From NCBI RefSeq assembly GCF_000737325.1, contig NZ_CP011125.1, positions 9,424,001-9,488,000 of the forward strand: a stretch of DNA of 64,000 nt, written 5' to 3'. The notes below the pieces were generated by a model. The model was not told the origin of the DNA. It saw only the letters and a list, made by a program, of their open reading frames with translations, and searched no databases. The number at the start of each line of letters is the position of its first letter. The stretch's first letter is position 1. Below, one piece after another: positions 5,783 to 57,881 of this stretch. The position numbers were made by a program, and so were the translations under genes. The stretch comes from Sandaracinus amylolyticus (GTDB taxonomy: Bacteria > Myxococcota_A > Polyangia > Polyangiales > Sandaracinaceae).

Positions 5783-5788
5783 TACCCT
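5783..5788 (+). promoter_or_regulatory. -10-like TACCCT, leaderless start at 5796
   Basis: TACCCT ends 7 bases before the ATG at 5796, so transcription should begin at or next to the start codon. There is no Shine-Dalgarno. Confidence 0.55.
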
Positions 5789-5795
5789 CCGGCGC

Positions 5796-8700
5796 ATGCG
5801 TTCGCTGCGCCCGATCTTCGTCCTGCTCGTCCTCTGGCTCGCCGGCTGCGGCGACGATCCAGACGATCCCGCGGTCGACGGCGGCGGCACCGACGCGGCC
5901 GTCGTGTGCACGCAGGACGAGGACTGCGACGACGATCGCTTCTGCAACGGCGCCGAGGACTGCGCGCCCGCATCGCCCTCCGCCGATGCGCGCGGGTGCG
6001 CGCCCGCGACGGTTGCGCCGTGCGTGACCGGACAGGTCTGCGACGAGAGCGCACGCTCGTGCACGACCGAGTGCAGCGTGACCGAGGACGCCGACGGCGA
6101 CGGGGCCCGCGCGACGGAGTGCGGCGGCGACGACTGCGACGACGCCGACGCGACGCGCTTCCCCGAGGCGACCGAGGTCTGCGATCTGCTCGGCCACGAC
6201 GAGGACTGCGACCCGACGACCTACGGCGAGCGCGACGTCGACGGAGACGGCGAGACCGACGCGATCTGCTGCAACGGAGAGACCTGCGGTCGCGACTGCG
6301 ACGATCTCCGCCGCGGCACCTCGCCCGACGCGAGCGAGGTGTGCGACGGGCTCGACAACGACTGCGACGATCTCGTCGACGAGCGCGTGACCGTCGCGGT
6401 GTGGCCGGACCTCGACTTCGACCTCCACGGCGACTCGGGCGCGACCGCGGAGATGCGCTGCGCGGGCGCGTTCGGCTATGCGACCGTCGGCGACGACTGC
6501 GACGACGACGATCCCGCGGTGCATCCCGCGCAGGTCGAGATCTGCGACGGGAAGGACAACGACTGCGACGCGCTGCAGGACGAAGCGCCCGCGGCGGTCA
6601 CCTGGTACGCGGACGCCGACGGCGACGGGTTCGGCAGCTCGGACCCGACGCTCGCGCGCATCAGCTGCACGCCGCTGCCCGGCTACTCGCTCCGCGCGAC
6701 CGACTGCGACGACGCCCGCGCCGGCATGAGCCCGGCGACGCCCGAGCGCTGCGACGGGCTCGACAACGACTGCAACGGCCGCCCCGACTTCATCCTCGGC
6801 GCGCGCGACACCGAGGACGACGACGGAGACGGTCACGCCGACCTCGCATGCCCCGGCGGCGACGACTGCGACGATCGCGATCCCACGAGCGCGCCGGAGT
6901 CCGCGGAGATCTGCGACGGCCGCGACAACGACTGCAACGGCGCGATCGACGACGGCGCGGCGATGGGCTCGTGGTGGATCGATCGCGACGGCGACACGTA
7001 CGGCGACGACGACACCGCGCCCGTGATGTCGTGCGCGTTCGTGCGCGGGCGCATCCCGCGCGGCGGCGACTGCGACGACTCGAGCGCCGATCGCCGCCCC
7101 GGCGCGCGCGAGGTGTGCGACGGCTCGGACGACGACTGCGACGAGCTCGTCGACGAGGGCTCGGAGCGCGGCGCGTACTACGTCGATGCCGACGGCGACG
7201 GCCTCGGCGCGGGCACCGCGCTGCTCGCGTGCGTGGCCCCGAGCGATCGTGTCGACGACGCGAGCGACTGCGACGACACGAACCGCTCGATCGGCGCGGC
7301 GCGCGTGTTCTTCGTCGACGCCGACGGAGACACCTGGGGCGATCCGCTGCGCTCCGAGCTCTCGTGCGCGACGCTCTCGAACCGCGTCACGCGCGGCGGC
7401 GACTGCGCCGACGGCGACGCGGCGATCTACCCGATGGCCACCGAGCGCTGCGGCGGCGGCGACGAGGACTGCGACGGCGCGACCGACGAAGATCCCGCGG
7501 CGAGCGCGAGCTGCACGATCATGGGCGCGAGCGCGGTGTGCAGCGCGGGCGCGTGCACGATCGGCATGTGCGCGCCGGGCCTCGGCGACTGCAACACGAG
7601 CAGCGCCGACGGATGCGAGACGTCGCTGCGCACCGACGCGACGAGCTGCGGCGCGTGCGGCGTGGCGTGTGATCCCGGCGAGCGCTGCCGCGAGGGCGAG
7701 TGCGCGCGCGTCACGTCGATCACCGCGGGCGACTCGCACGTGTGCGCGCTGCTCGACACCGGACGCGTCGCGTGTTGGGGCTCGAACCTCTACGCGCAGC
7801 TCGGGCGCGGCACGACGGGCAGCTCGGGCGCTCCGCCGACCGACGCGTCGCAGCTCGTGCAGCTCTACACCGGCGCGGTGCTCGGCGACGTGGTCGACAT
7901 CGACAGCCATCCCGACGCGAACTTCACGTGCGCGGTGCGCGCGACCGGTCAGGTCGTGTGCTGGGGCCAGAACCACGAGCTGCAGATCGGCGACGACGCA
8001 CCCGCGAGCTACGCGTCGCGCGCGGTGCCGATCCCCAACGTCGGCGGCGCGACCCACGTCACCGTGGGCTCGCGGCACGCGTGCGCGATCGTCGGCAGCG
8101 GCGAGGTGCGGTGCTGGGGCTCGAACTCCGGCGGTCAGCTCGTCAGCGGCAGCACGACGCCGGTGCGCAGCGGCGCGGGCGTCGTCGCCGTCGAGAACGA
8201 AGGCGGGATGCAGCGCCCGATCCCCGACGCGATCGCGATCGCGGCCGCGAACGAGCTCACGTGCGTGCTGCACGCGGGCGGTCAGCGCGTCTCGTGCGCG
8301 GGGCGCAACGGGAGCGGCGGCGGCGCGGCGGGGCAGCTCGGTCGCGGGACGCTCGCGGCCGGCATCTATCCGATCGCCGACGACGCGATCATCCCGACGG
8401 GCACGGTGCTCAACGGGATCGAGGCCGGCGCCGGCTCCTACGACGGCTTCATGTGCGCCACGCGCGCGGTCGGCGCGCCGCTGTGCTGGGGGCTCAACAC
8501 GTACGAGGCGCTCGGGCCCGGCGGCGCGATCAACGCGCCGCGCCCGTTCCAGCCGCTGCTCTTCGCGCAGACGCAGGGCGTCTCGATCGGCCAGGACTTC
8601 CTCTGCGTGCGCTACACGAACGAGTCGTTCGGTCCGCGCGTCGCGTGCTCGGGGCTCAACGGCAGCGGTCAGCTCGGCAACGACTCGATGGCGAACACCG

Positions 8701-8921
8701 CGACGCCGGTCGACGTGATCAGCGCGCCGGCGGACGCACCGCGCGGTCACCTGCGCAGCGACGAGGTCGCGCAGATGACGACGGGTCGCTCGTTCGTGTG
8801 CGCGCTGCTGACGAACGGCGCGGTGACGTGCTGGGGCCAGCCCGCGATGATCTACGGAGACGGGACCACGAGCGCGCGGCGGGTGGCCATCCCGACGTCG
8901 GTGGTCGCGAACGTGCCCTGA
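5796..8921 (+). CDS. Lipoprotein with MopE-like repeats and RCC1 propeller
   Basis: A 1041-aa exported lipoprotein (lipobox LAGC at about residue 17). Residues about 95-570 carry six or seven copies of the MopE-type metal-binding motif, in which a CDGxDNDCDxxxDE core alternates with DADGDGxG and DCDDxxPxxxP segments. In this family Asp/Cys-rich motifs bind metal or calcium and have been found on myxobacterial surfaces. A Cys-rich linker (about 570-640) is followed by seven RCC1-like blades, each with a CAxxxxGxVxCWGxN core, to the end. Seven blades would close one propeller. The gene stands alone and its 3' end lies 7 bases from the convergent amidase gene. Ligand unknown. Confidence 0.92.
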   Translation: MRSLRPIFVLLVLWLAGCGDDPDDPAVDGGGTDAAVVCTQDEDCDDDRFCNGAEDCAPASPSADARGCAPATVAPCVTGQVCDESARSCTTECSVTEDADGDGARATECGGDDCDDADATRFPEATEVCDLLGHDEDCDPTTYGERDVDGDGETDAICCNGETCGRDCDDLRRGTSPDASEVCDGLDNDCDDLVDERVTVAVWPDLDFDLHGDSGATAEMRCAGAFGYATVGDDCDDDDPAVHPAQVEICDGKDNDCDALQDEAPAAVTWYADADGDGFGSSDPTLARISCTPLPGYSLRATDCDDARAGMSPATPERCDGLDNDCNGRPDFILGARDTEDDDGDGHADLACPGGDDCDDRDPTSAPESAEICDGRDNDCNGAIDDGAAMGSWWIDRDGDTYGDDDTAPVMSCAFVRGRIPRGGDCDDSSADRRPGAREVCDGSDDDCDELVDEGSERGAYYVDADGDGLGAGTALLACVAPSDRVDDASDCDDTNRSIGAARVFFVDADGDTWGDPLRSELSCATLSNRVTRGGDCADGDAAIYPMATERCGGGDEDCDGATDEDPAASASCTIMGASAVCSAGACTIGMCAPGLGDCNTSSADGCETSLRTDATSCGACGVACDPGERCREGECARVTSITAGDSHVCALLDTGRVACWGSNLYAQLGRGTTGSSGAPPTDASQLVQLYTGAVLGDVVDIDSHPDANFTCAVRATGQVVCWGQNHELQIGDDAPASYASRAVPIPNVGGATHVTVGSRHACAIVGSGEVRCWGSNSGGQLVSGSTTPVRSGAGVVAVENEGGMQRPIPDAIAIAAANELTCVLHAGGQRVSCAGRNGSGGGAAGQLGRGTLAAGIYPIADDAIIPTGTVLNGIEAGAGSYDGFMCATRAVGAPLCWGLNTYEALGPGGAINAPRPFQPLLFAQTQGVSIGQDFLCVRYTNESFGPRVACSGLNGSGQLGNDSMANTATPVDVISAPADAPRGHLRSDEVAQMTTGRSFVCALLTNGAVTCWGQPAMIYGDGTTSARRVAIPTSVVANVP

Positions 8922-8928
8922 CGACGAA

Positions 8929-10476
8929 TCAGGTCGTGCGACGACGGAGCAGCAGCGCGAGCGCGAGGAGGAGCGCGAGCGCTGCCGCGGGCGAGCGACG
9001 CGCGTGGTCGATCGTGCAGCCGCCTTCGATCGAGCCCGACGTGCCGGCATCGATGCCCGCATCGACCTCGCTCGGCGCGATCGAGGTCACGCGCACATGC
9101 ACCACGTCGTCCGCGGGCCCGCCCATGCCGGGATCCGAGAACCACGCGACGTCTTCCTGCACGAGCGTGAAGAACTGCGCGTGCTCGCCGAGCGAAACGG
9201 GCGCGCGCACCGAGAACACGAAGCGTCCGACCTCGCCCGGCGCGACCTCGCGATCGACCGTCGCCGGACGGTTCGGCGCGATCCACGTGGGCGTCGCGAG
9301 CGCGCTCTCGACGTCGCGCGGCTGCGTCGTGCCGAGGAACGTCGCGCCCGGCGTCCACGTCTCGGTGCCGACGTTCCGCATCTCGATCACGCCGTCGGCG
9401 ATCGCGCCTCGCGTGACCTCGGCCGGGAAGGTCTGCGAGACCCACTCCGCGCCGAAGCGCGGCGTCGTCACCGCGCCCGCGAGCGCGCGGATCTCGTCGA
9501 GCCGCGCGTGCAGGTGATCGCCGGGGCACGCGGTGCTCTGATCCGGATGGTCGCGATGGCCCTTCAGCGTGTCGGTCGTGATCGTGATCTCGTGGATGCG
9601 CGCGACCTCGCGCGCGACGCGCCCCGCGCTCTGGATCATCACGTCGGGCGGCATGAACGGCGTCCAGTCGTTGCAGCTGCTCGAGTGGAAGCACCCGATG
9701 AAGCAGATGCCGACGTTGCCCGTGTTGTTCGCCGCGGTGTGGGTGCCGAGCAGATCGTGATCGCGCCCTTCCCACACCGTGCCGTCGAGCGACACGAGGA
9801 AGTGGTACCCGATGTCGCACCAGCCGTTGGTGTCCATGTGGTACGCCTGGATCCCGCGCAGGCGCGCGCCGATGTCGCCGCCCGACGGCGTCGCGGTGTG
9901 GTGGATCGCGATGCGCGTCTTGTCGGGATCGGCGTCGGTGCAGCGCGTCGCGCGCGCGCCCCAGCTCGCGCGATCGCGCACCCCGAGCGCCGCGAATTCG
10001 CTGCGCAGCGGCGCGCTCACCACGCCGACGTCGCGCGCTTCGTCGGCGACCGGCACCGGCACCACCGCGGACCACGTGATCATCGCGATCCGATCGACGT
10101 CGGACGCTGCGATGCGCAGCTCCGCACGGTGCGCGACGAACGTCAGATCGACGCGCGCGACGCGCTGATCGGGCTCCTCGAACGTCGTCTCGAGCGGCGC
10201 CCACGCGCCGCCGGCGCCGCGCGCCTCGATGCGCGGCGCTGCTCCGGGCCCGTCGAGCACCACGAGGGCGCCGACGCGCGTCGCACCGGTCGGCGCGTCG
10301 AGCGCGTCGACGTGGAAGCCGTCTTCGACACGCCAGTCGCGCGCGATCTCGAGCCCGGTCGCGCGCGCCTCGGGGATCGCGTCGACGTCGGTCGGTGGCA
10401 GCGTCGCGCGTGGCGTCTCGCACGCGACGAGCAGCGCGAGCACGACCACGACCCTCGAGCACGGCAGGCGAGTCAC
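8929..10476 (-). CDS. PGRP-type N-acetylmuramoyl-L-alanine amidase, surface anchored
   Basis: A 515-aa exported amidase that would cleave the bond between muramic acid and L-alanine in peptidoglycan. The catalytic domain (about residues 175-350) has the zinc ligands: His in IAIHHTATP near 191, His in KGHRDHP, and Cys in ACPGD; the family Tyr is in DIGYHFLV. A beta-sandwich near 365-470 resembles the NBR1-type Ig domain. The N-terminus has a lipobox (LLVAC) and the C-terminus has a Cys, a hydrophobic helix and an Arg-rich end, like a MYXO-CTERM sorting signal. GTG at 10476 was chosen because it puts the signal peptide at the N-terminus; GTG codons at 10503 and 10512 are alternatives. Confidence 0.9.
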   Translation of the reverse strand: MTRLPCSRVVVVLALLVACETPRATLPPTDVDAIPEARATGLEIARDWRVEDGFHVDALDAPTGATRVGALVVLDGPGAAPRIEARGAGGAWAPLETTFEEPDQRVARVDLTFVAHRAELRIAASDVDRIAMITWSAVVPVPVADEARDVGVVSAPLRSEFAALGVRDRASWGARATRCTDADPDKTRIAIHHTATPSGGDIGARLRGIQAYHMDTNGWCDIGYHFLVSLDGTVWEGRDHDLLGTHTAANNTGNVGICFIGCFHSSSCNDWTPFMPPDVMIQSAGRVAREVARIHEITITTDTLKGHRDHPDQSTACPGDHLHARLDEIRALAGAVTTPRFGAEWVSQTFPAEVTRGAIADGVIEMRNVGTETWTPGATFLGTTQPRDVESALATPTWIAPNRPATVDREVAPGEVGRFVFSVRAPVSLGEHAQFFTLVQEDVAWFSDPGMGGPADDVVHVRVTSIAPSEVDAGIDAGTSGSIEGGCTIDHARRSPAAALALLLALALLLRRRTT

Positions 10477-10513
10477 GCGGCGATCATCGCATGCTCTCGC
10501 CACGGCGAGCACT

Positions 10514-10534
10514 CAGCCGATTCGTCTACGTCCC
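10514..10534 (+). repeat. 21-bp direct repeat, left copy, with promoter hexamer
   Basis: This 21-mer and the one at 11975-11995 match at 19 of 21 positions. They flank the orphan gene at 10633-11946. The left copy contains TACGTC (10527-10532), a -10-like hexamer, so it is a plausible promoter of that gene. Confidence 0.5.
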
Positions 10535-13678: not shown

Positions 13679-13684
13679 AGGGTA
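13679..13684 (-). promoter_or_regulatory. -10-like TACCCT for the membrane kinase
   Basis: Read on the minus strand, TACCCT ends 11 bases before the ATG at 13667. It predicts a leader of only a few bases. Confidence 0.4.
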
Positions 13685-13809: not shown

Positions 13810-13992
13810 ATGAGAACGTGGTTGATCGCAGCCGTCGCTGCGGGGTGCCTCTTCGGCTGCGGAGGCACCGACGAGGCGCTCGGCGACGAGCCGAGCGCGA
13901 AGCCCGACGAGAGCGAGGGCGGGGAGATGTACGTCATCGAGCCCGAAGATCGTGGCCTCGCGCCGCCCGACGATCCTGCGCTGCCCTTCTGA
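13810..13992 (+). CDS. Small lipoprotein, 60 aa
   Basis: A short exported lipoprotein. The ATG at 13810 has a good Shine-Dalgarno (GAAGGGAG, 13793-13800), so the in-frame GTG at 13792 is rejected. The signal ends at Cys17 (LFGC). The mature part is about 43 residues, very acidic (Asp/Glu/Pro/Gly) and without further Cys. It is monocistronic and ends in a convergent terminator hairpin. Function unknown; it resembles other small acidic myxobacterial lipoproteins only in composition. Confidence 0.7.
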   Translation: MRTWLIAAVAAGCLFGCGGTDEALGDEPSAKPDESEGGEMYVIEPEDRGLAPPDDPALPF

Positions 13993-15695: not shown

Positions 15696-15746
15696 CGGCG
15701 CGCATCGTACGATCACGACCACCGACGCGCGCGCGATCGCGGGCGA

Positions 15747-17261: not shown

Positions 17262-17267
17262 TAATCT
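17262..17267 (+). promoter_or_regulatory. -10-like TAATCT before the YebC gene
   Basis: TAATCT ends 10 bases before the ATG at 17278, predicting a leader of about 3 nt and no Shine-Dalgarno. Confidence 0.45.
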
Positions 17268-18995: not shown

Positions 18996-19001
18996 GATGC
19001 T
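18996..19001 (+). promoter_or_regulatory. -10-like GATGCT, leaderless start at 19008
   Basis: GATGCT differs from the TAnnnT pattern only in its first base. It ends 6 bases before the ATG at 19008, so a leaderless transcript is likely. Confidence 0.4.
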
Positions 19002-20609: not shown

Positions 20610-22550
20610 TCAGCGCTCGCGCAGCGCGCCCTGCGCCTCGAGCCGTCCTTCGGCGAGCGTGAACCGCGGCGACGTCCCGAGGCGGACGCCGGAGCCGATG
20701 CCGGTCTCGCGCACCACGCCGCCGACCTCGAGCGCGCTCGGCGCGAGCATCGTGGGCGCGGGCACCGCGGGCATCGCGTCGTTGATCATCACGCTCGCGA
20801 TGTGGTGCGCGAGCACCGCGGCATAGGCGCGCACCTGGTCGCGCGCTTCTCCGCTCAGCGCGGGCACCGTCGCGACCTGGAGCTCGACGAGCTCGAGCCC
20901 GCCGTAGCTCGGATCGTCGCCCTCCGAGATCGTGCTCGCGCGCCCCGCCACCGAGATGCGCATGCGGACGCCGCCCGCCCACGGGCCGGTGCCCGACGCG
21001 GTCGCGGTGATCCCGCCGACGCTCACCACCATCGCGCCGGCGCGTGCCTGCGCGACCGGCGGCATCGCGCCCTCGACGCGGATCATGTCGGGCGCGACCA
21101 CCATGTCCGGCGCCACGACCATGTCGGGCGCGACCACCATGTCGGGCGCGACCACCATGTCCGGCGCGACCACTCCGTCGAGCGCGCCCGCGCGCCAGAG
21201 CGCGTGCAGCGCCTGGTTCATCACGATCTCGGAGACCGCGCTGCGGCTCGCGCTCTCGAGCCCGCCCGCGTCGAGGTCGATCGGCATCATCGGCACGCCG
21301 CGTCCGCTCTCGCGGGTGGCCGCGCCCATCAGCGCCCACGACGTGCGGAGCCCGAGCGCGAGCCCCTCGCTCTCGCGCGCCTCGACGCGCGTCGGCGTCG
21401 TCAGGAGCTGCAGCGCGACCGGCGTGCCGTCGATCCCGCGCACCGAGATCGGCGCCGCGCCGAGCCCGCTCCCGATCCCCGACACGAGCCCGCCGATCAC
21501 GCGCGCGACCGCGTCGCCGTACGTCGCGCCGAAGTCTCCGCGCACCGTGCGCGTGATCTCGGCATCGGGAAGCCGCTCGCGCAGGCCCAGCTCCGCGGCC
21601 GAGCGCTTCTCGCCCTCGAGGTCGGGGAAGCTCACCTCGGCCTCGTCGAAGTCGACCGCCTCGATCTCGCGCACCCGCACGAGCGGCCTGCCGAGCTCGA
21701 GGCCCACGTCGAGCGTGAGCGTCACCGCGACGTCGACCTCCACGGTGCCGATCGTGTCGAACTCGGGCGTGGGCGTGACGCACCCGCCCTCGGGCGTGCA
21801 CATGCCGGGCAGCGGCACGAGCACCTCGCCGACCGCGTGGGTCGTGAGGCGCACGTCGTCGCCGTGCGCGACCACGCGCAGACCGCCGTCGATGATCGAG
21901 ACCTCGGTCGACTGAGGCCCGCCGAGCATGCTGGTGTCGAAGTCGAGCACGTCGAAGCTCGCGCTGTACGAGTCCATCCCGCACGGGCCCGGCGGGACGC
22001 AGGGCCGCGTATCGAACTCGAAGAAGCCGAGCCCCGCGCCGAGCACCGCCGCGAGCCACCCCGAGCGCGACGTGCGCGCGAGCACGTCGTCGACGCTGCC
22101 GAGCATCGTGTCGTCGTCCCCGTCGTCCACGCCCGACTGCGCGATCTGCAGCAGCGCGGTCGTGCCGAGCTCGGGATCGTCGCGCTCGTGCGCGTACTCG
22201 GGCGCCGCGAGGAACGAGCAGAGCTCGGTCGCGCCGTCCGCCTCGACGCGCACGTCGATCACGCCGAAGCGCAGCGGCACGTCGGTGGTCACCAGCCCGA
22301 ACGCGTCGACCGGCACCGCGACGTCGTTCACCCGCACCATCGTTCCCGGCGCGACGTCGCGCACCGCCGCGACGAAGCGCACCGAGCCCATCGTCGCGTC
22401 CTGGACCATCTCGCCGTGCGCCGGCGCGACGCACGTGATGGCCGGCGCAGCCGGCGCATCGAGCGGCACCGACGCATCGGGATCGGCCGCCGGCGCGTCG
22501 GAGCACGCGACGAGGAGCGCAGCGAGGACGAAGGTGCGAAGCGACGCCAT
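20610..22550 (-). CDS. Lipoprotein with VVAPDM tandem repeat, unknown function
   Basis: A 646-aa exported lipoprotein (LLVAC near residue 16). Residues about 38-110 resemble an Ig-like module. The long middle part is beta-rich, without a recognised domain; its amphipathic strands could suit a lipid-binding tubular fold, but this is a guess. A six-residue unit VVAPDM is repeated five times at about residues 460-490 and is encoded by an 18-bp tandem repeat. The ATG at 22550 has a -10-like TATCCT 8 bases upstream. It is divergent from a Cys-rich lipoprotein. I do not recognise the family. Confidence 0.82.
   Translation of the reverse strand: MASLRTFVLAALLVACSDAPAADPDASVPLDAPAAPAITCVAPAHGEMVQDATMGSVRFVAAVRDVAPGTMVRVNDVAVPVDAFGLVTTDVPLRFGVIDVRVEADGATELCSFLAAPEYAHERDDPELGTTALLQIAQSGVDDGDDDTMLGSVDDVLARTSRSGWLAAVLGAGLGFFEFDTRPCVPPGPCGMDSYSASFDVLDFDTSMLGGPQSTEVSIIDGGLRVVAHGDDVRLTTHAVGEVLVPLPGMCTPEGGCVTPTPEFDTIGTVEVDVAVTLTLDVGLELGRPLVRVREIEAVDFDEAEVSFPDLEGEKRSAAELGLRERLPDAEITRTVRGDFGATYGDAVARVIGGLVSGIGSGLGAAPISVRGIDGTPVALQLLTTPTRVEARESEGLALGLRTSWALMGAATRESGRGVPMMPIDLDAGGLESASRSAVSEIVMNQALHALWRAGALDGVVAPDMVVAPDMVVAPDMVVAPDMVVAPDMIRVEGAMPPVAQARAGAMVVSVGGITATASGTGPWAGGVRMRISVAGRASTISEGDDPSYGGLELVELQVATVPALSGEARDQVRAYAAVLAHHIASVMINDAMPAVPAPTMLAPSALEVGGVVRETGIGSGVRLGTSPRFTLAEGRLEAQGALRER
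21084..21173 (-). repeat. 18-bp tandem repeat encoding VVAPDM x5
   Basis: Five head-to-tail 18-bp units (21084-21101, 21102-21119, 21120-21137, 21138-21155, 21156-21173). They differ only at synonymous positions, so the encoded peptide is kept as VVAPDM in all five. Confidence 0.9.
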
Positions 22551-22558
22551 CGCGACCG

Positions 22559-22564
22559 AGGATA
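22559..22564 (-). promoter_or_regulatory. -10-like TATCCT, leaderless start at 22550
   Basis: Read on the minus strand, TATCCT ends 8 bases before the ATG at 22550. Confidence 0.5.
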
Positions 22565-22580
22565 CGAGGGAACGACGCGT

Positions 22581-22621
22581 GGCAGGGCAGCTCCCCTCGG
22601 GGAGCGCCGTAATCCCCTGCC
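22581..22621. promoter_or_regulatory. Nested inverted repeats in a divergent promoter
   Basis: GGCAGGG (22581-22587) pairs with CCCTGCC (22615-22621), and inside it GCTCCCC (22590-22596) pairs with GGGGAGC (22599-22605). The region separates the two divergent lipoprotein genes and overlaps the plus-strand -10-like hexamer, so it could be an operator. No regulator is identified. Confidence 0.4.
22610..22615 (+). promoter_or_regulatory. -10-like TAATCC, leaderless start at 22622
   Basis: TAATCC ends 6 bases before the ATG at 22622; there is no ribosome site. Confidence 0.45.
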
Positions 22622-23926
22622 ATGCTCCGCACCGCTCTCGCTCGCGACGCCGCGCTCCTGCTCCTGCTCTCGCTCCCGCTGACCGCATGCGGGGACGACG
22701 ACGGTCCCGCCACCGACCCCGACGGCGGCATCGCGCAGCGCGACGCGGCGCTCCCGATGAACGAGCCGTGCGACGCGCCGGGCGCGCTCGAGACCGTCGC
22801 GTGCGGGCTCTGCGGCACGGTCCAGCGCTTCTGCACCGCGGCCGGCATCTGGGAGTACGCGACGTGCGAGGGCGAGTCGGGGGCGTGCGAGCCCGGCGCG
22901 TCGCGCACCGCCGCGTGCGGCGCATGCGGATCGCGCCGCGAGGTGTGCACCGCGTCGTGCGTGTGGGAGGCGGCGTCGGAGTGCGAGTCCGAGGGCACGT
23001 GCGAGCCCGGCGAGATCGTGCGCACCCGCGACGGATGCAGCGCCGGTCAGCGCGACCTCCGGTGCACCGACGAGTGCACGTTCGAGCCGATCTCGGAGTG
23101 CGAGGTCGAGACCTGCGAGACGCCGGGCGCGACCGAGCCCGTCGGCTGCGGGATGTGCGGCACGCGCGAGCGCTTCTGCACCGCGGCGCGCGAGTGGGAG
23201 TACGGCCCGTGCGAAGGCCAGGGCGGGTGCATGCCCGGCACGTCGCAGACCGAAGCGTGCGGCTTCTGCGGCGAGCAGACGGTGCGCTGCAACGCGACCT
23301 GCGAGTGGATCCCGTCGGGCGAGTGCACCGGCGCGGGCGAGTGCGCGCCCGGCACGACGACCACGCGCGCGTGCGGAGGCGGGGAGACGCAGCCGTTCAC
23401 GTGCAACGACGCGTGCACGTTCGAGCCCTCGGGCGAGTGCAGCGCGCCGACCGGCGGTGGCGCGCTCGGCGAGTCGTGCGTCGCGGGGACCTGCGACGTC
23501 GGGCTCACCTGCGACGAGGTCACGGGCGTCGACGTGTGCCGCGCGCCCTGCACCACCGACGAGCAGTGCGTCGCGAGCGCGTACTGCCTGGGCGAGGAGG
23601 GCCTCTGCTCCGACGCGTGCACCGCGTTCACCGACGCAGGCTGCCCCGCCGGCGCGAAGTGCGACTACCTCGGCGAGGCCGACACCACGACGCCGAGCCC
23701 GGTCATGGTGTGCAGCGCGGTCGGCTCCGGTCGCGCCAACGCGGTGTGCACGACGAACGCGCAGTGCGCGCGCGGCTTCAGCTGCGTGATCGAGACCGGG
23801 AGCTCGGGGCGCTGCACCCAGGTCTGCGACGGGTCGCATCCGTGCCCGAGCGGGCAGACGTGCAGCGGCGGCGGCACGCCGTTCCCCTTCCCGCTGCCGG
23901 GCTTCGGGCTCGGGTTCTGCGGCTGA
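22622..23926 (+). CDS. Cys-rich repeat lipoprotein
   Basis: A 434-aa lipoprotein (LTAC near residue 21). Residues about 45-280 hold six related units of about 38 aa, with a CxPGxxxxxxCGxCGxxxRxC core followed by a W-rich or E-rich strand and EC. The rest (about 280-434) has a different Cys pattern, of the type GxxCxxDxxCxxxxxC. All Cys are probably in disulfides outside the cytoplasm. There is no enzymatic motif. The ATG at 22622 is preceded by a -10-like TAATCC. Function unknown; such proteins are typical surface lipoproteins in this phylum. Confidence 0.85.
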   Translation: MLRTALARDAALLLLLSLPLTACGDDDGPATDPDGGIAQRDAALPMNEPCDAPGALETVACGLCGTVQRFCTAAGIWEYATCEGESGACEPGASRTAACGACGSRREVCTASCVWEAASECESEGTCEPGEIVRTRDGCSAGQRDLRCTDECTFEPISECEVETCETPGATEPVGCGMCGTRERFCTAAREWEYGPCEGQGGCMPGTSQTEACGFCGEQTVRCNATCEWIPSGECTGAGECAPGTTTTRACGGGETQPFTCNDACTFEPSGECSAPTGGGALGESCVAGTCDVGLTCDEVTGVDVCRAPCTTDEQCVASAYCLGEEGLCSDACTAFTDAGCPAGAKCDYLGEADTTTPSPVMVCSAVGSGRANAVCTTNAQCARGFSCVIETGSSGRCTQVCDGSHPCPSGQTCSGGGTPFPFPLPGFGLGFCG

Positions 23927-24449: not shown

Positions 24450-24455
24450 TATGCT
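24450..24455 (+). promoter_or_regulatory. -10-like TATGCT, leaderless GTG at 24463
   Basis: TATGCT ends 7 bases before the GTG at 24463. This spacing decides the start between the ATG at 24451, which overlaps the hexamer, and the GTG. Confidence 0.6.
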
Positions 24456-24462
24456 GCGCGCG

Positions 24463-25545
24463 GTGACGATCAAGCTGGCGAGCCCGGAGCTCGGCGCGGA
24501 GGAGAGCGCGGCGATCGCGCGCGTGCTCTCGAGCGGGATGCTGGTCCAGGGCCGCGAGGTCGAGGCGTTCGAGCGCGCCCTCGCGGAGCGCTGCGCGCGG
24601 GCGCACGCCGTCGTGGTCTCGTCGGGCACCGCCGCGCTCGAGCTCGCGCTGCGCGCGCTCGGTGTCGCGGGCGGCGAGGTGATCGTGCCCGACCTGACCT
24701 GGCCCTCCCCCGCGCACGCGACGCTGCTCGCGGGCGCGACGCCGGTGCTGGTCGACGTCGATCCCGACGAGTGGAACGTGCGCGGGGACGCGATCACCCG
24801 CGCGCGCTCGAGCTCGACGCGCGCGGTGATCGCGATCGATCAGTTCGGCGCGCCCGCGCGCCACGACGAGATCGCGCGCGCCGCCGGCGACGCGCCGATC
24901 GTCGAGGACGCGGCGTGCGCGATCGGGAGCACGATCGAAGGGCGTCCCTGCGGCGCGTTCGGCGTCGTCGCGTGCCTCTCGTTCCATCCGCGCAAGGTCA
25001 TCACGACCGGCGAGGGCGGCGCGTGCCTCACCGACGACGCGTCGCTCGCGAGCGAGCTGCGCACGCTGCGCAACCACGGCCAGCGCACGCCCGGCGTGTT
25101 CGCGTACGCGGGCCCCAACCAGCGGCTCACCGAGATGCAGGCCGCGATGGGCCGCGTGCAGCTCGATCGCCTCGACCTGATCGTCGCCCACCGCCGCGCG
25201 CTCGCCGATCGCTACCGCGCCACGCTCCCGCGCGAGGTCTCGCCGCAGCGCCTCGCGCCGCGCGCCACGCGCAACGAGCAGACCTTCGGCGTGGTGCTGC
25301 CCCCGCGCTTCGACGCGGAGGCGCGCGATCGTGTGATCGAGTCGCTGAAGCGCGAGGGCATCGAGTCGGGACGTCTCTCGTACGCGCTGCATCGCCTGCC
25401 GAGCCTCGACGCCGCGCGCCGTTCGGGCGAGATGCCGCACGCCGATGCGATCGTGGCGCGCGGCCTCGCGCTGCCCCTCCACGGCGCGATGTCCGAGGCC
25501 GACGTCGATCGCATCGTCGCCACGCTCGCGCGCGCGCTCGACTGA
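24463..25545 (+). CDS. DegT/DnrJ/EryC1-family PLP aminotransferase
   Basis: A 360-aa cytoplasmic aminotransferase that would make amino sugars from keto-sugars bound to a nucleotide, using PLP. Lys178 in SFHPRKVITTGEGG carries the PLP; the SGTAALELAL helix (near 55), PDLTWPSPAHA and EDAACAIGS are the family's cofactor and fold blocks. The start at GTG 24463 is favoured by a -10-like TATGCT 7 bases upstream. It has no neighbouring sugar operon here, so the product is unknown; lipopolysaccharide or exopolysaccharide amino sugars are likely. Confidence 0.93.
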   Translation: MTIKLASPELGAEESAAIARVLSSGMLVQGREVEAFERALAERCARAHAVVVSSGTAALELALRALGVAGGEVIVPDLTWPSPAHATLLAGATPVLVDVDPDEWNVRGDAITRARSSSTRAVIAIDQFGAPARHDEIARAAGDAPIVEDAACAIGSTIEGRPCGAFGVVACLSFHPRKVITTGEGGACLTDDASLASELRTLRNHGQRTPGVFAYAGPNQRLTEMQAAMGRVQLDRLDLIVAHRRALADRYRATLPREVSPQRLAPRATRNEQTFGVVLPPRFDAEARDRVIESLKREGIESGRLSYALHRLPSLDAARRSGEMPHADAIVARGLALPLHGAMSEADVDRIVATLARALD

Positions 25546-25576: not shown

Positions 25577-25582
25577 TACGTC
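25577..25582 (+). promoter_or_regulatory. -10-like TACGTC, leaderless start at 25590
   Basis: TACGTC ends 7 bases before the ATG at 25590. Confidence 0.5.
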
Positions 25583-26575: not shown

Positions 26576-26581
26576 TATCTT
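26576..26581 (+). promoter_or_regulatory. -10-like TATCTT, leaderless start at 26590
   Basis: TATCTT ends 8 bases before the ATG at 26590, inside the 19-bp gap after the lipoprotein gene. Confidence 0.5.
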
Positions 26582-26589: not shown

Positions 26590-27546
26590 ATGGCGAGCGA
26601 AGCGCCGGTCGTCGAGGTGCGCGGCCTCCACAAGACGTTCCGCGTCGGGTTCTTCCGCAAGAAGGTCGAGGCGGTGCGCGGCATCGACTTCGAGGTGCGG
26701 CGCGGCGAGATCTTCGGGCTCCTCGGCCCCAACGGCGCGGGCAAGACGACGTCGATCAAGTCGATCCTCCGCCTGATCTTCCCGACCGCGGGCACCATCA
26801 AGCTGTTCGGATCGCTCTCGCCCTCGCCCGAGGCGCTGCGCCGGCTCGGCTACCTGCCCGAGAGCCCGTACGTCTACCAGTACCTGCGCGCCCACGAGTT
26901 CCTCGATCTCTGCGGGCGCCTCTGCGGGCTCGACGCGCGCACCCGCGCCGAGCGCGCCGACGAGATGATCGCGCGCGTCGGCCTCGGTCACGCGGTCGAT
27001 CGCCCGATCGGCCGCTTCTCGAAGGGCATGCTGCAGCGCATCGGCCTCGCGCAGGCGCTGCTCCACGATCCCGAGCTCCTCATCCTCGACGAGCCGATGA
27101 GCGGCCTCGACCCGATCGGCCGCAAGGAAGTGCGCGACCTGATCGTCGAGGAGCGCCAGCGCGGCAAGACGATCCTCTTCACGAGCCACATCCTCAGCGA
27201 CGTCGAGCGCCTCTGTGATCGCGTCGCGATCGTGCACCGCGGCAAGGTCACCGCGTACGGCGCGCTCTCGCAGCTGCTCAAGCCCGAGGTGCAGCGCACC
27301 GAGATCGAGCTCGAGGGGTGCGACGAGACGCTCCGCGCGCGCCTCGACGAGCTGGGCGTGAAGACGAGCGTCGTCGAGAAGCGCGTGGTCGCGATCGTCG
27401 AGGGCGAGACCGGCGCGCGCGACGTGCTCGAGGTCGCGCTCGCGGGCGGCGCGCGCGTGGTCGGCGTGCAGGAGCAGCGCGAGACGCTCGAGGACCTCTT
27501 CGTGCGCGACGCGCTCCGGAGCGGCGGCGCACCGCTCGATCGATGA
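26590..27546 (+). CDS. ABC transporter ATP-binding protein
   Basis: A 318-aa ATPase of the ABC-2/DrrA-like type that would power export of a lipid, drug or polysaccharide. It has Walker A GPNGAGKTT (about 47-55), Q-loop, ABC signature FSKGM (variant of LSGGQ) near 145, Walker B LLILDEPMSGLDP and switch His in TSHI. The C-terminal ~85 residues form the regulatory extension seen in this subfamily. No permease gene is next to it; instead a HEAT protein overlaps its stop (ATGA). Its transmembrane partner must be elsewhere, or the ATPase acts otherwise. Confidence 0.93.
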   Translation: MASEAPVVEVRGLHKTFRVGFFRKKVEAVRGIDFEVRRGEIFGLLGPNGAGKTTSIKSILRLIFPTAGTIKLFGSLSPSPEALRRLGYLPESPYVYQYLRAHEFLDLCGRLCGLDARTRAERADEMIARVGLGHAVDRPIGRFSKGMLQRIGLAQALLHDPELLILDEPMSGLDPIGRKEVRDLIVEERQRGKTILFTSHILSDVERLCDRVAIVHRGKVTAYGALSQLLKPEVQRTEIELEGCDETLRARLDELGVKTSVVEKRVVAIVEGETGARDVLEVALAGGARVVGVQEQRETLEDLFVRDALRSGGAPLDR

Positions 27547-30089: not shown

Positions 30090-30759
30090 GCGCGCCGCGG
30101 CTCGCGAGGTGGTACTCGAGCGCGATCGTCGCGAGCCGATCGATCGTGATGTCGCACCGACTGCGCGCGCTGCCCTGGCGCCACCGCGTCCAGTGGCTCC
30201 GCGTCCCCGTTCCTTTCGGCGCGCCGATGGTCAGCGCGTCGCCGAGCCGCAGGTACGAGCCCACCCGCACTTCCTCGCCGGGCGTGGGGGACGAGTCCCC
30301 GAGCGTCATGACGCGGGCGCCGACCTCGACGGTCGCGGGCAGCCTCACCCGCCGCACCAGGAGACCGAGCGCGTAGCGCAGCCGGACCTCGTCGCCGTCG
30401 AGCTCGAGCCGGGCCCGCAGCACGCCGAGCCAGGCGAGCCCGACCACCGCGAGATACCCGATGACCAGGCCCGCCAGCGTCCCGCCCGCCACGTCCTCGC
30501 GCACGTCCGCGAGCACGACCGCCGCGCCCAGGAGCAGCGCGGCGAGCGCGAACGGGATCGCGGCCACCACGACCACGCGCCCGTCGGCGCCGCCGAGCGC
30601 CGGCGGTCCGCCGACCATCGCCAGGCCCCGGTGCACCGTCGCGAGGTGCGGCGCGAGGTTCTTCCCGTGCACGCTCGCGCCGCACGCCGGGCACGGCAGC
30701 GCGCTCTCGGGGTGCGCCGTCGCGAGCTGCGTCGCGATCGCGAGCGTGGACTCGTTCAC
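30073..30759 (-). CDS. Zinc-finger-bearing membrane protein
   Basis: A 228-aa protein with a short zinc-ribbon-like N-terminus: Cys23, Cys26, His38 and His43 (CPACG then HLATVH), a C-X2-C-X11-H-X4-H spacing near that of a C2H2 finger. Two transmembrane helices (about 58-78 and 86-106) follow, then a C-terminal beta-rich cytoplasmic domain with a PH-like look. The GTG start at 30759 fits the -10-like TACGCT 7 bases away. It is divergent from the rhodanese gene. I do not know a function; short two-helix proteins with metal-binding N-termini occur in many bacteria. Confidence 0.75.
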   Translation of the reverse strand: MNESTLAIATQLATAHPESALPCPACGASVHGKNLAPHLATVHRGLAMVGGPPALGGADGRVVVVAAIPFALAALLLGAAVVLADVREDVAGGTLAGLVIGYLAVVGLAWLGVLRARLELDGDEVRLRYALGLLVRRVRLPATVEVGARVMTLGDSSPTPGEEVRVGSYLRLGDALTIGAPKGTGTRSHWTRWRQGSARSRCDITIDRLATIALEYHLASRGALTPRG

Positions 30760-30766
30760 GCGCGCG

Positions 30767-30772
30767 AGCGTA
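30767..30772 (-). promoter_or_regulatory. -10-like TACGCT, leaderless GTG at 30759
   Basis: Read on the minus strand, TACGCT ends 7 bases before the GTG at 30759. Confidence 0.55.
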
Positions 30773-30790
30773 CCTCGCGTGCCGGCGTGG

Positions 30791-30796
30791 TAGGAC
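30791..30796 (+). promoter_or_regulatory. -10-like TAGGAC, leaderless start at 30804
   Basis: TAGGAC ends 7 bases before the ATG at 30804 and lies 19 bases from the divergent hexamer. Confidence 0.5.
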
Positions 30797-30803
30797 TGCG
30801 CGC

Positions 30804-31187
30804 ATGCCGAAGCGCGTGAGCCCGCAGGAAGCCAAGGGCCTGATCGATCAGGGCTGGGTCTACGTCGACGTCCGCACGCCCGAGGAGTACGCCGCGGGCC
30901 ATCCCGAGGGCGCGTACAACGTGCCGATCGGGCCCGAGCTGGTCGGCGCGATCGAGTCGCTCTTCCCGGCGCGCGACGCGAAGATCGTCGTCGGGTGCCA
31001 GGCCGGTGGGCGCTCGCTCCGCGCGCTCGGTCTGCTCGAGGCCGCCGGCTACACCAACGTCGTCGATCAGCGCGCGGGCTGGGGCGGCAACGGGAGCGAG
31101 GCGGGCTGGGGCGCGTCGGGCCTCCCGAGCGAGACCACCGCGCAGCCCGGCCGCAGCTGGCGCGAGATCGCGGCGAAGCGCGGATGA
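30804..31187 (+). CDS. Rhodanese-like sulfurtransferase
   Basis: A 127-aa single-domain rhodanese. The active-site loop VVGCQAGGRS has the catalytic Cys65, and the family signatures DVRTPEEYAAGHPEGAYNVP and YTNVVDQRAGWGGN are present. It would carry sulfur as a persulfide. The active-site loop begins CQAGGRS, as in the GlpE/PspE-like single-domain type. The next gene starts inside its stop (ATGA), encoding a degenerate metallo-beta-lactamase fold protein; rhodanese is often linked to persulfide dioxygenase of that fold, so the pairing is suggestive. Confidence 0.92.
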   Translation: MPKRVSPQEAKGLIDQGWVYVDVRTPEEYAAGHPEGAYNVPIGPELVGAIESLFPARDAKIVVGCQAGGRSLRALGLLEAAGYTNVVDQRAGWGGNGSEAGWGASGLPSETTAQPGRSWREIAAKRG

Positions 31188-34148: not shown

Positions 34149-34154
34149 TACCAT
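34149..34154 (+). promoter_or_regulatory. -10-like TACCAT before the oxidoreductase gene
   Basis: TACCAT ends 9 bases before the ATG at 34164, predicting a leader of about 2 nt. Confidence 0.45.
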
Positions 34155-40306: not shown

Positions 40307-40312
40307 ACGCTA
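40307..40312 (-). promoter_or_regulatory. -10-like TAGCGT, leaderless GTG at 40299
   Basis: Read on the minus strand, TAGCGT ends 7 bases before the GTG at 40299. Confidence 0.55.
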
Positions 40313-42093: not shown

Positions 42094-42099
42094 CGCATA
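42094..42099 (-). promoter_or_regulatory. -10-like TATGCG, leaderless start at 42086
   Basis: Read on the minus strand, TATGCG ends 7 bases before the ATG at 42086. The upstream in-frame ATG lies inside the hexamer and is rejected. Confidence 0.5.
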
Positions 42100-52160: not shown

Positions 52161-52177
52161 ATCACGCGAGACGCGGC

Positions 52178-52241: not shown

Positions 52242-53195
52242 TTGCAGCACGTCGATCTCTCGATCGTCATCGTGTCGTGGAACACCTGCGACATGACCGC
52301 CGCGTGCCTGCGGGCGCTGCGCGCCGATCGCAGCTCGCTACGCCGGCAGATCATCGTCGTGGACAACGCGAGCGAGGACGGGACCGCCGATCGTGTCGCG
52401 CGTGAGCACCCCGAGGTGGAGCTCGTGCGCAACCGCCGGAACCTCCTCTATGCGTACGCGAACAACCAGGGCGCGGCGCGCGCTCGCGGGCGCTACATCG
52501 CGCTCTTGAACTCGGACGCGCTGGTGCGCCCCGGCGCGCTCGATCGCCTCGTCCGATTCCTCGAAGCGAACCTCGCGTACGCCGCCGCGAGCCCCAAGCT
52601 CGTGGGCTCGCGCGGCGAGGTGCGCCGCACCTGCGCGCGTTTCCCGACGCTCGCGAGCGCGCTCGCGCACTCGACCGCGCTGGGGCGTGTGCCTCCGGGG
52701 CGCTGGATCGTCGCGCGCAGCCGGATGGAGGACTTCGATCACGAGCAGAGCCGCGACGTCGATCAGCCGCCGACCTCGTGTTTCGTGGTGCGTCGCCGCG
52801 ACTGGGAGGAGATCGGCGGGTTCGATGCGCGGATGAGCCTCTACTTCAACGACGTGGACCTCTGCTTCCGCCTCTGGCAGAGCGGACGGCGCATCCGCTA
52901 CGTCGCGGACGCGGAGGTCGTGCACGAGGAGGGCGGCTCGACGCGGCGCGCGCGACGTCGCGAGCGCAACATCGTGTGGAACCGCGATCGCGAGGCGTAC
53001 TACGAGAAGCGCTACGGCGCGCTCGGCAGGGTCTGGGCGCGCGCGGTGCTCGGCGCCGCGACCGCGGAGATCGCGGCGCGCATCGTCGCGAGCCGAGGTC
53101 GCGAGGCGGGCGAGCAGCTCGCCGCGCTGAGCGAGCAGCTCCGCGACACGCTCGGTCCCGACGCGCCGTCGATCACGCTCGATCAGGCGGCGTGA
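52242..53195 (+). CDS. Family 2 glycosyltransferase
   Basis: A 317-aa GT-A fold glycosyltransferase (rhamnosyl-type GT2). Visible motifs: LSIVIVSWNTCDMT entry strand, VVDNASEDGT, LLNSDALVRPG (the DxD-like site), and PPTSCFVVRRRDWEEIGGFD, with YFNDVDLCFRLWQSG near the acceptor site. The TTG at 52242 is chosen because AAGGAG (52229-52234) lies 7 bases upstream; GTG at 52212 is an alternative. It adds sugars to a cell-surface polysaccharide or lipid. The convergent neighbour is a flippase-type protein, which supports a surface-polysaccharide role. Confidence 0.9.
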   Translation: MQHVDLSIVIVSWNTCDMTAACLRALRADRSSLRRQIIVVDNASEDGTADRVAREHPEVELVRNRRNLLYAYANNQGAARARGRYIALLNSDALVRPGALDRLVRFLEANLAYAAASPKLVGSRGEVRRTCARFPTLASALAHSTALGRVPPGRWIVARSRMEDFDHEQSRDVDQPPTSCFVVRRRDWEEIGGFDARMSLYFNDVDLCFRLWQSGRRIRYVADAEVVHEEGGSTRRARRRERNIVWNRDREAYYEKRYGALGRVWARAVLGAATAEIAARIVASRGREAGEQLAALSEQLRDTLGPDAPSITLDQAA

Positions 53196-53204
53196 TCGAG
53201 CGCG

Positions 53205-54689: not shown

Positions 54690-54740
54690 GTCGCTCGGGG
54701 CCACATGAGCACGCGTCGCGCGCTGGAATCCCGCGTCGAG

Positions 54741-55568
54741 CTACAGGTCGACCTGCTCGACCTCGAGGCCGTCGAGATCGCGCCCGAGGAAGCGCGCGGC
54801 GACCTCCGCGAAGCGGCCCGGGCGATCGGTGACCATCAGCTTCAGACCGCCGCTCGCGCCCTCGCGCAAGAGGCCGCGCGCGCGCAGCGTCTCGTCGAGC
54901 TCACCCGCCGCGGCGACACCGCTGTCGACGACCGCGATCTCGCGACCCGCGACGCGCGCCGCCTCTTCGCGGATGACGCCGCTCAGCAGCGGATAGTGCG
55001 TGCACCCGAGGACGAGCGCGTCGATCTGCAGATCGCCGCGCATGAGGTCCTCGAGGTAGCGGCGCACCACGAGCGTCGGCACCTCTCCGTCGAGCCATCC
55101 TTCTTCCGCGAGCGGCACGAGCAGCGGCGCCGGGAGCTGCTTCACCTCGGCGCGCGTCTCGAAGCTCGCGACCGCGCGCGGATACGCGCCGCTGCCGACG
55201 GTGCCCGCGGTCGCGATCACGCCGATGCGCCCGCTCTTCGATGCGCGCACCGCGGCGCGCGCGCCGGGCTCGATCACGCCGAGCACCGGCATGTCGAGCT
55301 CGACGCGCAGGTGGTCGAGCGCGACCGCGCTCACCGTGTTGCACGCGACGACGAGCATCTTGATCCCGTGCTTCGCGAGCAGCGTGCCGCAGCCCCGCGC
55401 GTAGCGGATCACGGTGTGCGCGCTGCGCGTCCCGTAGGGCACGCGCGCGGTGTCCCCGAGGTAGACGAGCTCTTCGCCCGGCAGCGCCTCCGCGATCGCG
55501 CGGACCACCGTGAGACCTCCGAGCCCCGAGTCGAACACGCCGATCGGCGCTGCGCTCCGCTTCTCCAT
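54741..55568 (-). CDS. murI: Glutamate racemase
   Basis: A 275-aa enzyme that interconverts L- and D-glutamate for peptidoglycan synthesis. It has both catalytic Cys: Cys76 in VVACNTVSA and Cys189 in VLGCTHYPLL, plus the N-terminal GVFDSGLGGLTV and YLGDTARVPYG blocks. ATG at 55568 has GAGG at 9 bases, while an ATG at 55577 is in frame and gives three more residues. It lies between the Cys-rich lipoprotein and the flippase on the minus strand with gaps near 50 bp, so all may share a transcript. Confidence 0.95.
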   Translation of the reverse strand: MEKRSAAPIGVFDSGLGGLTVVRAIAEALPGEELVYLGDTARVPYGTRSAHTVIRYARGCGTLLAKHGIKMLVVACNTVSAVALDHLRVELDMPVLGVIEPGARAAVRASKSGRIGVIATAGTVGSGAYPRAVASFETRAEVKQLPAPLLVPLAEEGWLDGEVPTLVVRRYLEDLMRGDLQIDALVLGCTHYPLLSGVIREEAARVAGREIAVVDSGVAAAGELDETLRARGLLREGASGGLKLMVTDRPGRFAEVAARFLGRDLDGLEVEQVDL

Positions 55569-55614
55569 GCCGCTCATCCTCGCCCAACCGATCGACGCGT
55601 GGCGAAGCTTCCGA

Positions 55615-56751
55615 TCACGGCGCGACGCACACGTTCTCCCGACAGATCAGCCCGAGACGACACTGCTCCGCCCGCTCGCATCCTCCGCCCTCGAAGCTGC
55701 GCGGGAGACAGCTGCCTCCTCCCGCGCTCGGCTCGCAGTACGCGGTGAGCGGCGCGCGCGCGTCGTTGCACTCGGCGTCGCTCGCGCAGTCGCGCGAGCA
55801 GAAGCGCACGATGCTGCCGCCCGCGAGGAAGCGCCGGCACTCGAGCCCTTCCGCGCAGCGCATGTCGTCGTTGCACGGCGCGCCGGTCGTGCCGAGCGGC
55901 GCGCACACATCGCGCCCCTCGGCCTCGAGGCAGCGCACCTCGAGCGCATCGAGCCGCAGCCCGCGCGACGCCTCTTCCAGGGCCTCGCAGCCGTCGCCCT
56001 CGAACACGCGATCGGCCTCGCCGCACCCGTAGGTGCACGCGCGACGTCCTTCTCCGATCGCGAGACAACGGCCGAGCAGACACTGCGCGTCGTCGTCGCA
56101 GGGCACGCCCCACGACCCCGGGTAACACGCGCTCGCGCCCGGCTGCGCGAAGAGATACCCGAGCTCGCGCAGGCACGTCAGACCGGGCGGACACCGCGAT
56201 CCCGCGCTGTCGCAGCGAGGCAGGCACGTCGCGGGGGAGTCGCCCGCGGCCGGCGCGACGAGATAGCCGGTCGGACAGCGCATCATCTCGTCGGGCACCG
56301 CGACGCAATAGAGCTGATCCGACGCGTACGACACGCCGGGCAGCACCGGCGGCAGATCGAACACGTCGTTGAAGCAGAGCGTCCCCTGCGCGCACTCGTC
56401 GGAGCGCGAGCACGTCTCGACGGGATAACAGACACCCTCTCCCGAGAGCAGATCGGTGCGAACACACGAGTGCCCGTCGGGGCACTCCGTCGCTCCGTCT
56501 CCGAGCAGCGTGCACCGCGACAGGCACTCTCCATTGCGCGTGCAGTATCCGTCGCACGACGACGCGTCGGCGGGATCACAGGCGGGACGACAGAAGTCCT
56601 CGCCGAGCACGCTGCGATCGGCGCAGCGCCATCCGTCGAGACAGTCCTCCTGGACCTCGCAGGTCCAGAGGCGCGTCAGCAGATCGTCGGGCCGCTCCAC
56701 GCTGCACCCCGCGGCACAGAGCGCGAGCACGACGATCCACAGACGGCGCAC
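55615..56751 (-). CDS. Cys-rich lipoprotein
   Basis: A 378-aa lipoprotein (lipobox CAAGC near residue 16). The mature part has a dense, evenly spaced Cys pattern (about 40 Cys) in short units of the type CxxDxxCxxGxxCxxxxxxxxC, likely forming disulfide-linked knots. No catalytic motif is seen. The GTG at 56751 comes one base after the stop of the upstream PEGA protein (TGACGTG), so it is coupled to it. It resembles other myxobacterial surface lipoproteins in Cys spacing. Confidence 0.82.
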   Translation of the reverse strand: MRRLWIVVLALCAAGCSVERPDDLLTRLWTCEVQEDCLDGWRCADRSVLGEDFCRPACDPADASSCDGYCTRNGECLSRCTLLGDGATECPDGHSCVRTDLLSGEGVCYPVETCSRSDECAQGTLCFNDVFDLPPVLPGVSYASDQLYCVAVPDEMMRCPTGYLVAPAAGDSPATCLPRCDSAGSRCPPGLTCLRELGYLFAQPGASACYPGSWGVPCDDDAQCLLGRCLAIGEGRRACTYGCGEADRVFEGDGCEALEEASRGLRLDALEVRCLEAEGRDVCAPLGTTGAPCNDDMRCAEGLECRRFLAGGSIVRFCSRDCASDAECNDARAPLTAYCEPSAGGGSCLPRSFEGGGCERAEQCRLGLICRENVCVAP

Positions 56752-56752
56752 G

Positions 56753-57868
56753 TCAGAACCGTCCCGCGACGCCCGCGGCGGCACCGCCCTCGACCGGCGC
56801 GACCCACGCGCTCGCGCGCTCGCGCGGCGCGTCGTCGATCCCCGACATCGCGAGCCCGACCGCGACCGCGACCGCGCCTGCGCCCGCGATCCCGAAGAGC
56901 ACGTTCGCCGCGATCGCCTCGGCGTCGCGCGCCGGATAGAACTGCTCGACCACGTCGCGCATCGACACGTCGTCGCTCGGCTCCGCCTGCGACGCGACGC
57001 CGAACGCGATGCCCGCGGTCGCCGACGCGAGCGCGATCGCGCCGCCGACCCAGACCAGCGGCGAGGGCGTCCAGCTTCCGGCGCGCTCGAGCACGGCGTC
57101 GATCATCAGCGTCGCGCCTTCTTCGACCTCGACCGAGCGCTCGAACGCCCGGAAGCCCGCGGCCTCGACGCGCAAGAGGTGCGTGCCCGGCTCGACGGTC
57201 TCGCGCCGCAGCGGCGCGCCGTCGAACACGCCGATGGCCGCGCCGTCGAGCGTCACCGCGGCACCCTGCACCGTCGCGCGCACCACGAGCCGTCCTGGCT
57301 GCACGCGCCGCGCGTAGAGCTCGGGGATCGACTCCTCGAGCGCACGGAGGAGCGCGTCGAGATCGCCGCTCACCTCGCGGAACACGCGCCCGAGCTGCTC
57401 TCCGTCGCGCACGTCGATGCGGTGGAGATCGAACGCCCACGCCGGCGCGCCGCTCGCGTCGGCGCGGAGCGCGAGCGTGCCCGCGATGATCTCGCGCACG
57501 TCGAGCAGCGCGCCCACGCGCCCGAGGCACGCGGCGCTCTCGATGCAGCGCGCCGTCTCGGCGTCGTCGCGCTCGAGCTGCGCCTGGAGCTCTTCCTTGC
57601 CGACGATCTGGAACCCCTCGCCGCGCGCCGCGACCCCGGCGATCAGGAGCTCGGTGAGCGCGTCGGTCATCGCGGGATCGACGTCGGGCCCGCCGGGCAG
57701 CAGCACGACCGCGACGCGCGGCGCGATCGGCGGCGCGAGCCGCGCCGGCCCCTCGTCGTCGAGGCCGGCTTCCTCCGAGGGCAGGAGCACGTCGTCCTGT
57801 GCACGCGCGGTCGTCGCGATCGCCAGCAGGGCGAGGATCGACGACGCGACGCGCACGGCCCGGAACAT
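56753..57868 (-). CDS. PEGA-domain exported protein
   Basis: A 371-aa protein. A signal peptide (about 1-23, ending ARA), then a domain of the type seen in myxobacterial CsgG-like/PEGA proteins (RVAVVLLPGG...DALTELLIAGVAARGEGFQIVGKEEL), then a PEGA domain (about 190-265, with GTHLLRVEAAGFRAFERSV), and two hydrophobic helices near 270-340. It probably sits in the envelope. The ATG at 57868 has TACCAT 7 bases upstream. It starts a minus-strand run with the Cys-rich lipoprotein, murI and a flippase. Function unknown. Confidence 0.82.
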   Translation of the reverse strand: MFRAVRVASSILALLAIATTARAQDDVLLPSEEAGLDDEGPARLAPPIAPRVAVVLLPGGPDVDPAMTDALTELLIAGVAARGEGFQIVGKEELQAQLERDDAETARCIESAACLGRVGALLDVREIIAGTLALRADASGAPAWAFDLHRIDVRDGEQLGRVFREVSGDLDALLRALEESIPELYARRVQPGRLVVRATVQGAAVTLDGAAIGVFDGAPLRRETVEPGTHLLRVEAAGFRAFERSVEVEEGATLMIDAVLERAGSWTPSPLVWVGGAIALASATAGIAFGVASQAEPSDDVSMRDVVEQFYPARDAEAIAANVLFGIAGAGAVAVAVGLAMSGIDDAPRERASAWVAPVEGGAAAGVAGRF

Positions 57869-57875
57869 CGCCGCG

Positions 57876-57881
57876 ATGGTA
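57876..57881 (-). promoter_or_regulatory. -10-like TACCAT, leaderless start at 57868
   Basis: Read on the minus strand, TACCAT ends 7 bases before the ATG at 57868. Confidence 0.55.

Follow-up and report, generated by a model that had tools for sequence, protein, structure and literature searches.

Start-adjacent hexamers in a 64-kb window

The genome of the soil myxobacterium Sandaracinus amylolyticus consists of a single contig of 10,327,335 bases with a GC content of about 73%. The window analyzed here is its 64,000-base stretch from position 9,424,001 to 9,488,000, in which a sequence-only reading had listed 12 gene starts preceded, 6 to 8 bases upstream, by a hexamer resembling a -10 promoter element. 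All 12 starts do have such a hexamer, yet it conforms strictly to TAnnnT at 7 of the 12 and deviates by one mismatch at the remaining 5 (Table 1). The deviating base is the last T in four of these five and the first T in the other (19008). One-mismatch forms are only about twofold enriched at spacers of 6 to 8 bases (TAnnnG, 18 vs 8.3; TAnnnC, 16 vs 8.1); therefore, each of these five sites is roughly a coin toss. Strict boxes that were absent from the earlier list, including some at longer spacings, are marked in the table.

Table 1. TAnnnT hexamers and one-mismatch candidates upstream of gene starts in the window. Spacer, bases between hexamer and start codon; posterior, per-site value from the two-motif mixture model; G194, same-genus genome.
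Hexamer	Position	Strand	Start codon	Spacer	Match	Posterior	Remarks
TACCCT	5783..5788	+	ATG 5796	7	strict	0.99	
TACCCT	13679..13684	-	ATG 13667	11	strict	0.97	short-leader type; not in earlier list
TACGAT	15704..15709	-	ATG 15695	8	strict		not in earlier list; G194, TACGCT, spacer 7
TAATCT	17262..17267	+	ATG 17278	10	strict	0.85	short-leader type; not in earlier list; G194, TACCCT
GATGCT	18996..19001	+	ATG 19008	6	no TA (first T deviates)	0.48	weak candidate
TATCCT	22559..22564	-	ATG 22550	8	strict		kept in G194
TAATCC	22610..22615	+	ATG 22622	6	one mismatch	0.60	weak candidate
TATGCT	24450..24455	+	GTG 24463	7	strict		identical in G194
TACGTC	25577..25582	+	ATG 25590	7	one mismatch	0.64	candidate; identical in G194
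TATCTT	26576..26581	+	ATG 26590	8	strict		ABC transporter ATPase gene
TACGCT	30767..30772	-	GTG 30759	7	strict		
TAGGAC	30791..30796	+	ATG 30804	7	one mismatch	0.79	candidate; G194, TACGAC
TACCAT	34149..34154	+	ATG 34164	9	strict	0.99	short-leader type; not in earlier list; kept in G194
TAGCGT	40307..40312	-	GTG 40299	7	strict		kept in G194, spacer 8
TATGCG	42094..42099	-	ATG 42086	7	one mismatch		candidate; G194, TATCGA
TACCAT	57876..57881	-	ATG 57868	7	strict		kept before orthologues in several genera

Most of the listed starts lack a Shine-Dalgarno (SD) sequence, a lack that had been claimed for all of them. The start at 30759 departs from this, with a duplex score of -7.2, though its GAGG lies at least 13 bases upstream. 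The genes at 89 and 13810, which had been named as SD-led, do carry the motif (AGGAGG at 89; a score of -8.5 at 13810).

Two divergent gaps, 22550-22622 (71 bases) and 30759-30804 (44 bases), have a -10-like box on both sides; given these lengths, the two promoters in each must overlap physically. The TATGCT box at 24450 holds an in-frame ATG (24451), which the automatic caller preferred to the GTG at 24463. Such TATGnT boxes, when they precede leaderless genes, systematically lead to wrong start calls.

Position, operon context and promoter architecture

Genes were called in 1.664 Mb of the S. amylolyticus genome (the window together with 80 stretches of 20 kb spread over the contig) with a caller of our own that is based on codon statistics and ignores upstream motifs, and chance levels for operon-first genes were taken from 100 dinucleotide shuffles. 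TAnnnT occurs at spacers of 6 to 8 bases before 60 of the 890 operon-first genes, compared with 4.3 ± 2.2 in the shuffles (maximum, 10 in 100 shuffles), and ranks first among the 64 XYnnnZ classes at these spacers. The enrichment over shuffled controls that the earlier reading had asked for is thus strong, and it also holds without gene calling. A scan of raw DNA for TAnnnT-N(k)-ATG returned 22, 32, 37, 35 and 32 matches for k = 6 to 10, with about 10 per spacing elsewhere. When all 64 XYnnnZ hexamers were scanned before ATG, TA...T was the sole outlier (3.15-fold; next, 1.22-fold). Likewise, across 14 test codons at spacers of 6 to 10, ATG showed a 3.16-fold excess (p = 4e-34) and GTG a 1.42-fold excess, and TTG, CTG and others showed none; the 2.11-fold value for CAT arises because CATG contains a shifted ATG. 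The stricter pattern TATAATN6ATG has no match in the whole genome.

The signal depends on operon context. Among operon-internal genes, TAnnnT lies at spacers of 6 to 8 in 5 of 255, so that the peak is nearly absent. Extending the range to spacers of 6 to 11 gives 94 operon-first genes where about 11 are expected, an excess of about 83 in 890. By this strict count, the putative leaderless or near-leaderless class comprises at least about 9% of operon-first genes, and perhaps up to about 28%. The upper figure comes from a two-motif mixture model, whose -10 share of 26 to 28% is an upper guess and whose SD component took up background, making its SD share unusable. The class is more common in divergent gaps shorter than 80 bases (22/86 vs 42/368; p = 0.0016). 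The suggestion that many of these genes encode envelope proteins or lipoproteins was not borne out, a lipobox being present in 14 of 94 (14.9%) compared with 94 of 796 (11.8%; p = 0.40); enrichments in signal peptides and in Ser/Thr kinases among these genes were not significant either.

Aligning the 94 genes on the hexamer revealed a weak -35 signal, namely, a TTG 20 to 21 bases upstream, corresponding to a -35 element with a spacer of 17 to 18 bases (11 observed vs 1.1 expected). SD sequences precede 4.3% of the TAnnnT-class genes, a share that rises to 29.5% for the remaining first genes and 49.4% for operon-internal ones, with about 11% in a control window. Part of this depletion is geometric, since the box fills the space where an SD would lie. 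The anti-SD sequence of 16S rRNA is intact in two copies, which indicates that leaderless-type and SD modes coexist in the genome.

For comparison, we used about 0.8 Mb of the same-genus genome G194 and 0.4 Mb of a signal-free member of the phylum (G007, family f11). When 20 upstream regions were compared with their orthologous counterparts in G194, 115 of 120 positions were conserved in the -35 block and likewise in the -10 block, versus 427 of 540 in the flanks (p = 2e-6). Whole-hexamer conservation is not discriminating in this test: TAnnnT boxes farther upstream were kept almost as often as start-adjacent ones (19/22 vs 20/20) because G194 is close (about 92% identical). Upstream of the gene at 26590, the 16 bases before the ATG are identical in G194, and the DNA beyond them has diverged. 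The gene at 57868 allows a more distant comparison, as its orthologues in other genera (43 to 48% protein identity) carry TACCAT or TATCAT just upstream of the start. The spacer is 7 in S. amylolyticus, G194 and G190, 6 in G189, 11 in G150 and G193, and 15 in G188, and the G192 orthologue has TATGAT at a spacer of 18. That the box is kept while the start drifts, with spacers from 6 to 18, suggests exchange between leaderless and short-leader states.

Interpretation of the boxes

The TAnnnT hexamers are very probably the -10 elements of promoters set directly against the coding sequence, with transcripts that start at the start codon or 1 to 5 bases before it and are translated in the leaderless manner. 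Five independent lines support the promoter reading: enrichment at a single position, the distance to the -35 signal, restriction to operon-first genes, SD depletion and conservation in relatives. The sequence-only reading had placed transcription initiation at the start codon on the basis of the spacing; the position, architecture, operon context, SD depletion and conservation observed here back that placement, and from them we infer precisely where transcription begins and how the ribosome binds. The promoters would be of the ordinary sigma70 type, with a weak TTG -35, a spacer of 17 to 18 bases and a GC-rich discriminator. At spacers of 6 to 7, RNA polymerase would initiate on the first base of the start codon (A or G); at spacers of 8 to 11, it would initiate 1 to 5 bases earlier. 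The resulting mRNA would have no SD leader, and the ribosome would bind the 5'-terminal start codon through the leaderless route, with SD leaders in the same genome serving operon-internal genes and many first genes.

The boxes might instead reflect how starts are called. AT-rich hexamers make poor codons, and a caller that relies on codon statistics, as ours does, could place starts just behind them; indeed, it shifted one start (24451 for 24463) into the hexamer. Such an artefact is refuted by the annotation-free scan, where the peak persists, and before ATG and GTG only. In addition, the same caller yields no peak in the 0.4 Mb of G007 that were read directly, and almost none among operon-internal genes. 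We therefore give this explanation hardly any credence. An equally implausible alternative is that the hexamer is a translational element, an AU-rich site of ribosome recruitment rather than a promoter. Non-SD, AT-rich upstream signals are found in other phyla, for example, in Bacteroidetes (mentioned in PMC9581028), but the hexamer is nearly absent before operon-internal genes and is paired with a -35 signal, and the way in which T1, A2 and T6 are fixed around a freely varying middle likewise argues against this reading.

A more serious alternative, though still one that we consider improbable, is that these mRNAs have short 5' leaders of 1 to 10 nt and are not truly leaderless, the tight spacing being a consequence of compact intergenic regions. 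It would accommodate the ATG genes, which peak at a spacer of 8 and extend to 10 to 11, the drift of orthologous promoters to spacers of 11 to 18 in other genera and the abundance of the class in short divergent gaps. In contrast, spacers of 3 to 5 are empty and GTG genes lie sharply at 6 to 7, a pattern consistent with transcription beginning precisely at the codon in at least a part of the class. Since the spacers of ATG genes reach 10 to 11, another part would have leaders of about 1 to 5 nt rather than none. Promoters placed against the coding sequence, with leaders of none to a few bases, remain the reading that we favor.

Distribution in the phylum and relation to known systems

We surveyed 188 genomes of the phylum by counting TAnnnTSSSSSNNATG (k = 7) against the same pattern at k = 17. 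The whole S. amylolyticus genome gave 114 vs 18, the same-family genome G150 gave 148 vs 22 and G084 gave 180 vs 12; excesses were also found in families f21 (569 vs 127) and f2 (1,099 vs 383). Families f11 (645 vs 678), f13 (181 vs 171) and f38 (289 vs 267) showed none, and in these negative families it is the excess counts that vanish, not the ratios alone. Overall, the signature is strong in f1, f21, f24, f28 and f32 and absent in f11, f13 and f38. Family f13 is negative despite a low background count, which suggests high GC; thus, differences in base composition are probably not enough to account for this patchiness. In G007, TAnnnT is rarer than background before starts (0 to 1 per position at spacers of 6 to 10 vs 3.2), as if avoided.

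Start codons differ in their spacing. In called genes of S. amylolyticus, ATG genes peak at a spacer of 8 and reach 10, and GTG genes are confined to 6 to 7 (16:46 vs 21:11; p = 0.0003), a difference spotted post hoc, after inspecting the data, and also seen in the raw scan (p = 7e-5). In whole-genome counts for 26 positive genomes, GTG matches at k = 7 outnumber those at k = 9 in 25 of the 26 (1,383 vs 947). The share of the ATG excess at k = 9 depends on lineage, from about 0.5 in several genomes of the same order to near zero in some of f21. It is conceivable, and we put it forward only tentatively, that the phylum gained or lost leaderless initiation repeatedly, with GTG requiring an exactly 5'-terminal codon (spacers of 6 to 7) and ATG tolerating a leader of 1 to 4 bases (spacers up to 10). 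The phylum would then be a natural experiment on what ribosomes need in order to accept leaderless mRNA. The patchiness itself, ranging from strong to no excess over 188 genomes, provides a comparative set for what permits leaderless translation. The class also extends an unevenly documented expression mode to a large-genome, multicellular Gram-negative lineage, and it bears on annotation (start calls and SD-based models) and on heterologous expression of myxobacterial gene clusters.

In 2011, before the phylum was split, myxobacteria were classed as Deltaproteobacteria. Zheng et al. (2011, PMC3160421) defined the same TAnnnT signal as leaderless (TA-led) and, among 33 deltaproteobacterial genomes, predicted such genes in 8 (mean, 15.8%; range, 5.7 to 20.6); their text names no myxobacterium. 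Given that classification, their entry and the Sandaracinus boxes are probably the same phenomenon. Their survey of this class included no analysis of -35 elements, orthologues or distribution within the phylum (PMC3160421). The earlier statement that no systematic description was known thus holds in part: our literature search on leaderless mRNA in Sandaracinus, Sorangium and Myxococcus found no relevant description and no detailed account for this group, but the class-level prediction exists (PMC3160421).

The class is a real and well-supported instance of a known mode of starting genes; what is new is its patchiness across the phylum and the difference in spacing between GTG and ATG. It resembles the TA-led genes of Actinobacteria and Deinococcus-Thermus (PMC3160421) in that TAnnnT lies about 12 bp upstream of the start, its middle bases carry no information, an SD is absent and SD-led genes occur alongside. 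It differs from them in phylum and in extent: the strict excess corresponds to at least 9% of operon-first genes, whereas TA-led genes make up about 20% of genes in Actinobacteria and about 40% in Deinococcus-Thermus (PMC3160421). As in mycobacteria (Shell et al. 2015, PMC4633059), leaderless mRNAs would form a common class in a GC-rich genome, alongside leadered genes of the SD type. Mycobacterial transcripts were mapped experimentally (PMC4633059), whereas the Sandaracinus class is deduced from sequence; in it, ATG genes tolerate longer spacers than GTG genes do.
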